A stretch of 45,255 bases of DNA from a virus. The stretch spans positions 1 to 45,255 of IMG/VR virus record IMGVR_UViG_3300021471_000008; one strand, written 5' to 3'. The position numbers and the translations under genes were made by a program. This document shows positions 11,198 to 43,633 of this stretch, piece by piece (positions within the stretch are counted from its first letter, which is position 1; each line of letters opens with the position of its first letter). The notes beneath the pieces were generated by a model. The model had not been told where the DNA came from and ran no database searches. It worked only from the letters and a program-made list of their open reading frames with translations.

Positions 11198-11355
11198 AAA
11201 AAAAACAGTTAATAGATTGTTATGCCGTTAATTGTATATATTATGACAAAGGAGAATGTAAACTAGAACTAGTAGTTATTGCTGAGGATGAAGTAACAAA
11301 ATTACCTACATGTCAAAATTTTTATAGTAAAGAGGAGGTAATAAATAATGAATGA
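11194..11355 (+). CDS. Cys-rich microprotein, 53 aa
   Basis: ATG 11194 follows AAGGTGG and overlaps the preceding gene. Cysteines at residues 9, 14, 22 and 40 (DCYAVNC, GEC, PTC) resemble small zinc-binding DUF1540-like peptides. It ends at TGA 11353-11355, overlapping the next ATG. No function known. Confidence 0.6.
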   Translation: MKKKQLIDCYAVNCIYYDKGECKLELVVIAEDEVTKLPTCQNFYSKEEVINNE

Positions 11356-38374: not shown

Positions 38375-38605
38375 TTGTGGGACACTCGGGGGGAAAAAAA
38401 AGAGCTGACCAACGCAGAGAGACCACTTCCATCTGCCTTTCTGTCCAAAGGTTTTTCAGTTTTTCCCAGCTAGAGAGCCTTAAACAACCGACTAATGAGT
38501 TGGACTTGTGTAAGAGTGTTGAACACCCGACCAGAAATGCAACAGAGAGAGAGTAGAGCGTGTCTAGCTTTGTGTTTAGTCATCTGTTTATTTTAACTTT
38601 TTTTC
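38375..38605 (+). ncRNA. Candidate non-coding RNA 1 (about 230 nt)
   Basis: Between a TATA box and a T-tract (38598-38609) lies a stretch clearly richer in G and C than the flanks, with no SD-led frame. Possible pairings are GGACAC (near 38380) with GTGTCT (near 38569), CAAC...GTTG around the CGACTAATGA loop, and a GTGTTGAACAC palindrome. No known RNA family (tRNA, RNase P, SRP, box C/D) is recognised. In an AT-rich genome, a GC-rich promoter-to-terminator unit without a frame is a good sign of a structured RNA. Exact ends are inferred. Confidence 0.45.
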
Positions 38606-38880
38606 TTTTCGTCAATTAGTTTTTTAGCCGTATGGTTTTTTCTTTCGTGTCGGGTTCTCTAATTGGATAATTTTTGTTTTTTTGTCGTTCATTTTTTTTG
38701 TTAAAAACCCAATTCTCTCTTTTTCTTTATTCTCCCGTTCTCTTTCTTCATTTTAGATTTTTTTTTGCAAATTGGTGCAACGGTTTTTTGACCGTCTGTT
38801 TATTTTCTTTACACATATGGACTTTATAGTTTAGCGGTTTCTTGTTTGTGTATTCTTCAATTTTGCTTTTTTCTGAACTG
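38606..38880. other. T-rich non-coding stretch
   Basis: About 275 bases of pyrimidine-rich sequence with many T-tracts of six to nine. No frame with an SD, no long inverted repeat and no recognised RNA. It probably acts as a multiple terminator for RNA 1 and spacer before the next promoter. An easily melted origin region is also possible. Confidence 0.4.
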
Positions 38881-38883
38881 TCG

Positions 38884-38899
38884 AAATATATAAATAAAA
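38884..38899 (+). promoter_or_regulatory. TATA box of candidate RNA 2
   Basis: AAATATATAAATAAAA is centred about 26 bases before an A at 38918, the first base of ATCACCTCCTTG. This predicts a transcript whose 5' end is the anti-SD sequence. Confidence 0.5.
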
Positions 38900-38916
38900 T
38901 GTGTGTGTCGTATATT

Positions 38917-39110
38917 CATCACCTCCTTGAAAACAACAACACGGACAGAACATATTTGTTCTGTCAAAGTTTTGGGGAAAAACCCAAAACTCACGTTGTT
39001 TTCAGTTAGAAAACAAGAACTCACGAATAAGGCATTCAACCCCATGAATGCAAAACAGTGCAATTTGGCACTAAAATTGAGTATGCTCTTTTTAGGTTTT
39101 TCATGGTTTA
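38917..39110 (+). ncRNA. Candidate structured RNA 2 or leader with 16S anti-SD sequence at its 5' end
   Basis: The predicted RNA begins ATCACCTCCTT (38918-38928), identical to the 3' end of 16S rRNA. A three-way junction follows: P1 TGAAAACAAC (38928-38937) with GTTGTTTTCA (38995-39004), P2 GACAGAACA (38944-38952) with TGTTCTGTC (38957-38965), and P3 AGTTTTGGG (38968-38976) with CCCAAAACT (38983-38991). Two more hairpins (GCATTCA...TGAATGC and AGTGC...GCACT) and T-rich sequence follow. It may be a separate RNA or the 5' leader of the gene at 39168. The opposite strand has only a 20-codon frame. Confidence 0.55.
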
Positions 39111-39135
39111 GAGTGCCTTAAGTAATCGTTTTCTA

Positions 39136-39170
39136 TTTGGTGATACAAAAATTTTTGGTGATACCAAATG
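39136..39170 (+). repeat. Duplicated TTTGGTGATAC with SD-hiding hairpin before gene 39168
   Basis: TTTGGTGATAC occurs at 39136-39146 and 39154-39164. The second copy is part of TTTGGT-GAT-ACCAAA (39154-39168), a six-pair hairpin that includes the SD GGTGAT and touches the ATG. Translation of the downstream gene may depend on opening this hairpin. Confidence 0.6.
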
Positions 39171-39767
39171 TCAGATGAACAAGCATTTATGGATTATCTC
39201 TCAATCCATAATAAAATACCCAATTTTGAGAGAATTAGCGAATGGGAAAGGCACAAACCTAGTTTTGCTCTTCCTATGGTCAGAACTCTATTTTTGCAAA
39301 CCGTCAATTTCAATTTTGGAAGTGGAAAAGATAGAAAAATGTTAGTTATTGACCACGAAAAAATCAAAGAATTATTTGATTTGAAAGTGCCTAACTACAT
39401 TTCCATTAAAATATTCAACACTAAAAGACCTATTGCTTCAATTTCTTTCATTTTTGAAGACACTTACAATAAGAGCGGTTGTAGTACTGAATTTCTACTT
39501 AATAGTCCAAAAAAGATTTTGAGTCTTTACGGATTTGCTAGACGTGAGATTTCTAAGTCTCTTTGGTCATTGATTTGGTTAGTAAAAATGTTCAATAATA
39601 CATCAATATCTATACTCAACCAAATTAAGTCCGAAAAACCAAAATCAAAGAAAACAACCGTAAAAAGCTCTGACGATGATGAACTAGGCGAAATCAAAAG
39701 CGCTTTAAAACAACTGACTTTGACTGTTCAATTGTTAGCTAATAGCGTTGTAGGTGACGAAAAATGA
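39168..39767 (+). CDS. Hypothetical protein, 199 aa
   Basis: First protein gene of the right control region. Body: a helical N-terminus (DEQAFMDYLSIHNKI), a central mixed domain (NYISIKIFNTKRPIASISF) and a basic linker (KSEKPKSKKTTVKSS) followed by a terminal helix (LGEIKSALKQLTLTVQLL) that may oligomerise. No family recognised. The SD is embedded in a hairpin. Its position near the likely origin and regulatory RNA suggests an early regulator or replication initiator, by inference only. Confidence 0.65.
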   Translation: MSDEQAFMDYLSIHNKIPNFERISEWERHKPSFALPMVRTLFLQTVNFNFGSGKDRKMLVIDHEKIKELFDLKVPNYISIKIFNTKRPIASISFIFEDTYNKSGCSTEFLLNSPKKILSLYGFARREISKSLWSLIWLVKMFNNTSISILNQIKSEKPKSKKTTVKSSDDDELGEIKSALKQLTLTVQLLANSVVGDEK

Positions 39768-39997: not shown

Positions 39998-40003
39998 TTT
40001 TAA

Positions 40004-40024
40004 TTTCTTTTTTTTTCTTTTTTT
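40004..40024 (+). terminator. T-tract terminator after gene 39764
   Basis: A run with T9 and T7 blocks interrupted by single C, beginning seven bases after the stop. Archaeal transcription ends in such T-tracts without a hairpin. Confidence 0.55.
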
Positions 40025-40094
40025 GTGAGTTCTCAAATGGTTTTTTCGTGAGTTCTTAAAAAATGCATGAAAAGCGCTTGAAATGTGTGACTAG

Positions 40095-40108: not shown

Positions 40109-40557
40109 TTTTCATAAGTTTTACGGCTTCTAATTGATGTTTTTGAAAAATGGTTCAGTATTACCATGCTATCCCACTTCATGAAGACCGTCATGATATT
40201 AAAAACCCTTATTTTTGATGTTTTCGTGAGTTCTACATATCCTGACGTTTTTTTTTCCCCGAAAAAGTTTCGGATAACCGAAAAAATCGGCAGGGTCGCT
40301 ATGTGCTCAAATCGAACACATTGAATTTGAACGTTTTAAGTTCTGAAACTTGTATAAAATGAACTTGACTAATTAATTAACTTTTTTTTAGTTTCGGTTA
40401 GCGGTTTTTTTGACTTTGTGCTATTCTGACACACTTCTTTATTCTTCTTCAGTCACGTAATCCTAGGCTCTGTTTTAAAACAAATCGCTATTTGTTCAAG
40501 TCGTAGACTGATTAAAGCCTTGATATGATATTATATAATTTAAAAAAAAAGTTTTTA

Positions 40558-40605
40558 GAAAAAACAGCCTAAAAACAGTTTTAAAAACAGTTCTAAATAC
40601 AGTTT
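40558..40605. repeat. Four tandem 12-base iterons
   Basis: Units GAAAAAACAGCC, TAAAAACAGTTT, TAAAAACAGTTC and TAAATACAGTTT repeat with exact 12-base spacing. Iteron-like arrays commonly bind a replication initiator or repressor on one face of DNA. Confidence 0.6.
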
Positions 40606-40643
40606 TAATAATCTTTTTTAGGTTAAAGGTGTGTGTATCTGTC

Positions 40644-40880: not shown

Positions 40881-40953
40881 TGAGCCCCTTTATATGATGA
40901 CGATTTCCTAGTCATTATATATATGAAACGGCATACCAAAAAAACAGAAGGAG

Positions 40954-41253
40954 TTGATTATTATTAAAAATAAATTACATCTTTATATATATAATTTGTT
41001 GAAAAAAATTAGTGACTGGTATCTTTGGATAGATAGATATTCTGTTTATCCAGACGAACCACTAATAAAAGCAGATTATGAATTTATATTTGTAGCTATT
41101 ACTTGCTCTGGAAAACTAGACACACAAGATTTATTAAAACTTGAACAATTATTAAACAAAAAATTAATAATTGAACCATTGGACTCAAAAATCTTTATAA
41201 CTATTGAAATATTCAACGGATTTAGTGATAAAAATGAACATAAAAATATATAA
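40954..41253 (+). CDS. Hypothetical protein, about 99 aa, paralogue of the next gene
   Basis: GAAGGAG ends one base before TTG 40954, so the true initiator may be one of the following in-frame ATT codons (40957, 40960 or 40963). The body reads ISDWYLWIDRYSVYPDEPLI and DYEFIFVAITCSG, and aligns with the downstream protein (WLIEADANLVYPDDPTI and EYIYISISCTF). The shared layout is helix, YPD-E/D-P turn, strand, helix, strand. No known family. Long palindromic leader. Overlaps the next gene by 20 bases. Confidence 0.55.
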   Translation: MIIIKNKLHLYIYNLLKKISDWYLWIDRYSVYPDEPLIKADYEFIFVAITCSGKLDTQDLLKLEQLLNKKLIIEPLDSKIFITIEIFNGFSDKNEHKNI

Positions 41254-41485
41254 AATATTAAAAATACTCAGTGAGTGGCTCATTGAGGCTGACGCTAATC
41301 TCGTCTATCCAGACGACCCTACAATAAAAATCGATAAAGAATATATTTATATATCTATTTCATGCACTTTTGCTGACTTACCGTCAGCAAATAAACTTGC
41401 TCATTTATTAAAAAACGACCAAATAGCCTTTGAGCCATGTGGACATAGAACAATTATTCATATTGTTCTTGATAATAATCTTTGA
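41234..41485 (+). CDS. Hypothetical protein, 83 aa, paralogue of gene 40954
   Basis: ATG 41234 follows AGTGATAAAA inside the end of the upstream gene; the longer frame from 41204 is unlikely. It begins MNIKIYKILKILSEWLIEA and contains NLVYPDDPTIKI, close to its neighbour's SVYPDEPLIKA. It ends with a strand (HRTIIHIVLDNNL). Tandem duplicates with divergence suggest a two-subunit complex. A weaker third relative lies at 43400. Confidence 0.6.
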   Translation: MNIKIYKILKILSEWLIEADANLVYPDDPTIKIDKEYIYISISCTFADLPSANKLAHLLKNDQIAFEPCGHRTIIHIVLDNNL

Positions 41486-43388: not shown

Positions 43389-43399
43389 AGGTGTTAATC

Positions 43400-43633
43400 A
43401 TGTTTTTAGAGAACATTTTGACTAAAATTTCTAAAATTTTAGTCGATAATGATTTTTATTTTAAAGAGATGGATATAATTCTTTTTCAAGACTTTATAGA
43501 AATACAGTTTGTAACTACAGCTATTTTTAATTTGCCTTTGTTAAAAGAGTTTGAACGAGTAACTGACGAGGTAAATATATTCGTCTCTCAGAATGGATAC
43601 AAAGCTACCCTTTGTTTAACTATATGGAAGTGA
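43400..43633 (+). CDS. Hypothetical protein, 77 aa
   Basis: ATG 43400 follows AGGTGTTAATC; an in-frame codon at 43391 overlaps the SD. It begins FLENILTKISKILVDNDFYF, similar in layout to the pair at 40954/41234, then strands (DIILFQDFIEIQFVTTAIF and EVNIFVSQNGYKATLCLTIW). Possibly a third, divergent member of that family. Function unknown. Confidence 0.55.
   Translation: MFLENILTKISKILVDNDFYFKEMDIILFQDFIEIQFVTTAIFNLPLLKEFERVTDEVNIFVSQNGYKATLCLTIWK

Follow-up and report, generated by a model that had tools for sequence, protein, structure and literature searches.

A putative structured leader with a 16S-like anti-Shine-Dalgarno sequence and a duplicated Shine-Dalgarno sequence in what appears to be an archaeal-type tailed virus

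The virus and the locus

The window, by which we mean the whole stretch of DNA that was analyzed, is a virus record of 45,255 bases. Its genes include a tailed-virus set (terminase, portal, and major head protein). Other features are archaeal in kind: a nuclease of the ERCC4-HHH type, a KaiC ATPase, and BRE/TATA promoters, for example at 1715 and 38317. The terminase compares with that of the Halogranum virus HGTV-1 at 22%, and against Thermoproteota genomes it finds distant terminases, at up to 33-36% over short stretches and with a best match of 28%. Searches with the portal, the terminase, the nuclease, and ORF 39168 brought up no close relative of the virus, just terminase homologues at about 20-30%. 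We conclude that this appears to be an archaeal-type tailed virus.

The locus consists of a promoter, an anti-Shine-Dalgarno (anti-SD) sequence, two structured domains, a duplicated GGTGAT, and a unit of two genes (Table 1). The protein of ORF 39168 has no match in Pfam, PHROGs, phage records, or viral contigs, and its structure model is unusable (pLDDT 40). Immediately upstream of the leader promoter lies a 290-nt noncoding T-rich tract (38590-38880, 55% T) with eight T runs. Further along the window, three small proteins (40954-41253, 41204-41485, and 43391-43633) look like paralogues by eye.

Table 1. Features of the leader and of the two-gene unit, in window coordinates.
Feature	Position	Strand	Basis or remark
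Predicted archaeal promoter TCGAAATATATAAATA (BRE-like TCGAAA and TATA box TATATAAATA)	38881..38896	+	score scan, 6.6 bits
ATCACCTCCTT, identical to the anti-SD region of the 16S rRNA 3' end; predicted transcript 5' end	38918..38928	+	sequence
P1 5' strand AUCACC, predicted to pair with 39139-39144	38918..38923	+	MFE and pair probability
Three-way junction domain	38927..39005	+	z from -7.2 to -8.5; no fold of the window is more extreme
Junction stem 1	38927-38937/38995-39005	+	11 bp (10 Watson-Crick and one G-U)
Junction stem 2	38944-38952/38957-38965	+	9 bp
Junction stem 3	38968-38976/38983-38991	+	9 bp
Second structured domain	39007..39135	+	folding of the growing transcript; z -3.9
Second-domain helices	39007-39014/39128-39135, 39028-39037/39111-39120, 39042-39048/39100-39106	+	
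12-mer AGAACTCACGAA in the leader	39016..39027	+	exact reverse complements at 40045-40056 and 40223-40234; inverted copy with one mismatch at 40022-40033
GGTGAT copy 1, proposed decoy SD and P1 3' strand	39139..39144	+	no start codon at SD spacing
GGTGAT copy 2, SD of ORF 39168 and alternative anti-SD partner	39157..39162	+	aligned spacing 5
Proposed regulated gene, 199-aa protein of no recognisable family	39168..39767	+	ORF and SD
Second gene of the unit, 77 aa	39764..39997	+	start codon overlapping the first gene's stop; SD AGGTGA
Probable archaeal terminator downstream of the two genes, a T-rich tract (T9, C, T7)	39998..40024	+	sequence; function predicted

The 12-mer of the leader recurs around the two-gene unit. 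Its 9-mer core has four copies in comparison with 0.47 expected (0/100 shuffles), the inverted copies follow the unit, each behind a T run, and no other site in the window reaches such identity. These sites could be protein-binding or iteron-like. We considered a pairing between the 5' and 3' UTRs through the 12-mer, at -16 to -20 kcal/mol, and set it aside: the 3' copies start no earlier than the end of the T-rich tract, and it is doubtful that they share a transcript with the leader. Separately, about four copies of AAAAACAGTTCT form a tandem repeat at 40560-40608, inside an origin-like noncoding region of 950 nt.

The promoter and the anti-SD sequence

The promoter in Table 1 is alone in exceeding 3 bits on the plus strand from 38600 to 39170, where the runner-up scores 2.7. 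Its TATA site spans 38887-38896, and ATCACCTCCTT begins 21-23 nt past the TATA box, so that the suggestion of the sequence-only reading of an archaeal-type TATA box at the proper distance before the anti-SD is borne out. The score is a middling one, ranking about 138 among all positions of the window on both strands. The transcript is predicted to start at A38918, or at A38921, in which case half of P1 would be lost. The single plus-strand promoter of the region sits upstream of the leader, and leader and ORF 39168 may be co-transcribed.

The anti-SD sequence has a single exact copy in the window on either strand, and dinucleotide shuffles give an expectation of 0.04 per window. The 11-nt identity thus agrees with what had been claimed earlier, namely that an anti-SD forms the predicted 5' end of the RNA. 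At the 16S 3' ends of 20 Thermoproteota loci, GGATCACCTC is present in 20/20 and GGATCACCTCC in most. As a separate observation, AAGGAGTTGAT at 40948-40965, ahead of an ORF, differs from the full anti-SD complement at one position; the best-spaced in-frame start of that ORF is the ATT at 40963, a possible unusual start codon.

On the minus strand the same bases read as an SD, AAGGAGGTGAT, which could in principle serve a small gene of its own. We found no plausible one. The SD spacing of 19 window genes, aligned to the 16S, is 2-7 nt with a mode of 5, whereas the ATG at 38919, after AAGGAGGTG, overlaps the SD duplex with an aligned spacing of -2, and by inspection no start codon lies where such spacings would place one. 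From the spacing, a minus-strand gene is unlikely.

A three-way junction

The structural element at 38927-39005 is real. The 104-nt fold has an energy of -37.3 kcal/mol (z -7.2), 0/200 shuffles are as stable, and among 2580 folding windows on both strands none is as extreme as the 110-nt one at 38921. The nested three-way junction noticed from the letters alone is therefore confirmed as the strongest fold in the window, at a z of about -8.

On which strand does the element act? Without the anti-SD (38928-39004) the junction has a z of -7.95 in comparison with -7.9 for the reverse strand, which folds nearly as well because the stems are almost all Watson-Crick. Since the two strands fold about equally, structure alone gives no verdict on the strand, and the choice of strand has to rest on the promoter, on the geometry of the SD, and on the downstream gene.

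The closing helix and the whole leader

The sequence-only reading stopped at 39004, with a junction of 90 nt. That junction is strong, but the element extends further and the RNA is now predicted as a leader of about 250 nt; the reading had not included the second domain or the pairing between the anti-SD and GGTGAT. When the growing transcript is folded, an early local hairpin at 39032-39051 forms in the shorter transcript, and both of its strands are later taken by 39100-39120. Displaced early hairpins are common in regulated leaders. The leader also contains a 25-codon ORF (39044-39121) that lacks an SD and would encode the hydrophobic peptide MNAKQCNLALKLSMLFLGFSWFRVP.

For an RNA that begins at A38918, the helix between AUCACC and GGUGAU (39139-39144), which we call P1, is in the MFE structure at all tested 3' ends from 39160 on, with a probability of about 0.73-0.96, and it persists with folding parameters for 60 C. 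P1 closes a leader of 227 nt that encloses the junction and the second domain, and the whole leader folds at -82.2 in comparison with -48.0 for shuffles (z -7.1). Among random native 230-nt segments, 1.4% have 6 bp or more between their ends, so that P1 as a closing helix is suggestive and not proven.

The anti-SD had been described as exposed. In the intact leader it is predicted to be paired with the upstream GGTGAT, while in a transcript ending at 39120 the description holds: AUCACC is then free, and its first five bases have an unpaired probability of about 1.0.

The two GGTGAT copies sit in a 15-nt repeat (39136 and 39154, 93% identical). The duplication makes sense because copy 2 is an SD at the spacing that is modal for window genes, and copy 1, which serves no start codon, is the copy with which the anti-SD is predicted to pair by preference. 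The anti-SD can pair in silico with the SD of the gene in one of two alternative folds; the fold with copy 1 is the MFE, and pairing with copy 2 is less stable by 1.5-2.7 kcal/mol.

Searches for homologues

Neither viral contigs nor 300 archaeal (Thermoproteota) genomes yielded a relative of this RNA, an absence that is weak evidence since these collections may lack near relatives. The covariance search that had been suggested for the stems and the anti-SD was run with a single-sequence model; it returned nothing in 23 related and other records or in the 300 Thermoproteota genomes, and in the absence of any relative it demonstrates no conservation. The TATAAATA version is absent from the 300 Thermoproteota genomes. 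Five exact ATCACCTCCTTGAAAAC sites in viral contigs were rejected as homologues: they lack the junction fold, and their number is at about chance level. As a control, we folded 21 other viral sites of the form TATAAA-N(16-32)-ATCACCTCCTTG, and 0/21 have a comparable fold (best z -3.1).

A proposed switch in cis

We tentatively propose, at a probability that we would put a little short of even, that this is a cis-acting structured 5' leader of about 250 nt for the two-gene unit, with an anti-SD that alternates between two partners, a decoy SD and the true one. Transcription from the promoter at 38881-38896 would start at or beside A38918, and the RNA would begin with AUCACCUCCUU. The junction and the second domain would bring this 5' end beside the two GGUGAU copies. 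With the anti-SD on copy 1, the leader would be closed and the true SD, copy 2, would be weakly hairpinned; with the anti-SD moved to copy 2, ribosome binding to ORF 39168 would be blocked. The balance may be set by a ligand, by a protein (possibly the product of 39168 itself), or by folding kinetics.

Fold stability, the presence of P1 in the MFE structure, the SD geometry, the sole promoter, the strand exchange in the second domain, and the control sites that do not fold all support a cis leader. Its limits are that P1 has just 6 bp, that any anti-SD pairs with any SD, that one sequence with no homologue yields no covariation, that the promoter score is moderate, and that the reverse strand folds nearly as well. 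Moreover, even the default state has part of copy 2 in a local hairpin, and the two states are therefore predicted to differ little.

If confirmed, this would be a structured leader of an archaeal virus that controls translation by means of a copied ribosomal anti-SD and a duplicated SD. Archaeal viruses have hardly been explored for RNA control, and the leader would then give them a compact system in which to test SD-based regulation. In the open-licence literature we found no description of an RNA of such a type in an archaeal virus.

Alternative explanations

What if the structure is real and the anti-SD match is a coincidence? The leader or RNA would then act by mRNA stability (protection from 5' exonucleases) or by protein binding, which we regard as unlikely, if quite conceivable. 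The junction is significant without the anti-SD, the 11-mer was chosen post hoc from a long window despite its low expectation, and a P1-like match between the ends arises by chance at the rate given above. Yet the motif coincides with the predicted start, directly precedes the fold, and has its duplicated partner at the fold's other end.

The locus might also be a DNA element, that is, a viral replication origin or regulatory region made of cruciform inverted repeats, T-rich tracts, and iteron-like repeats, with no functional RNA. The nearly complete Watson-Crick pairing of the stems is strand-symmetric, as such an element would have it; the block sits between divergent gene blocks, close to where the cumulative GC skew is lowest and next to the T-rich 38590-38880 tract, and the region has four copies of the GTGAGTTCT motif and the 12-bp tandem repeat at 40560-40608. 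But GC skew tracks gene direction in the window, no initiator gene is recognised there, and the spacing of the promoter, the anti-SD, and the duplicated SD would all go unexplained. We find this reading distinctly unlikely.

It is quite improbable, in our estimate, that the RNA acts in trans, with the 5' end of the leader or a processed short RNA pairing with host or viral SDs and lowering translation, or competing with 16S rRNA. The 11-nt identity to the anti-SD would suit such a role, as would the free AUCACC of a transcript that ends at 39120, before the GGTGAT copies. The viral SDs at 11348, 15314, 12526, and 40963 pair at -10.6 to -12.7 kcal/mol, where the 1% tail of random sites is at -10.3, but pairing with viral SDs is expected of any anti-SD and hence is no evidence. 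The sequence just past the junction shows no evident terminator, and the anti-SD is concealed when the leader is intact. That a viral RNA has a 5' end mimicking the 3' end of 16S rRNA and, by targeting SD-led messages in trans or by competing with 16S, redirects translation in an archaeal host, we hold to be very improbable. Action on the duplicated GGTGAT or on other mRNAs had both been suggested from the sequence; the first, as a cis target, is paired in the predicted fold, and a trans or decoy RNA found no support.

Finally, control by a minus-strand RNA covering the leader, of the sort that governs plasmid copy number or type I toxin-antitoxin systems, would agree with the promoter-like site near 39102 (GAAAAACCTAAAAA), which at 8.3 bits scores above the plus-strand promoter, with the strand exchange in the leader, and with the hydrophobic ORF at 39044-39121, but that ORF lacks an SD, the TATA of the minus site is weak (CCTAAAAA), and no antisense RNA is known, so that we consider it extremely improbable.

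Comparison with known systems

Rfam 15 has no match in the window at the gathering threshold (the best sub-threshold one, Ocean-V on the minus strand, has 21 vs. 75 bits), no known Rfam aptamer is present in the window, and the element contains no tRNA. With no family match and no known aptamer, we do not file the element as a riboswitch.

In the metastable mRNAs of the hok/sok and AapA1 types, early local hairpins are displaced later and an end of the molecule pairs with the SD. Both traits are predicted for the viral leader, whereas its locus has no recognised toxin, an antisense RNA is hypothetical, and the virus is of an archaeal type. Some bacterial sRNAs, such as RNAIII of S. aureus and those of Campylobacter, carry C/U-rich anti-SD motifs and act in trans, typically via short loop seeds. 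The viral RNA shares with them a CCUCC-type stretch complementary to SDs beside stable stem-loops, and it differs in that its motif would be 5'-terminal with a partner in cis, action in trans being just hypothetical.

By analogy, the element would work like the regulatory leaders that bear an anti-SD, namely riboswitches and autoregulated leaders. The preQ1 riboswitches (PMC10622847) are an example of translational riboswitches with an anti-SD strand. Translational riboswitches and autoregulated leaders share with the viral element a structured 5' leader, alternative pairings, and an accessibility of the SD that is set by pairing within the leader. What sets the viral element apart is an anti-SD that repeats 11 nt of the 16S 3' end and is placed at the predicted 5' terminus, an SD that is duplicated, and a setting that is probably archaeal.
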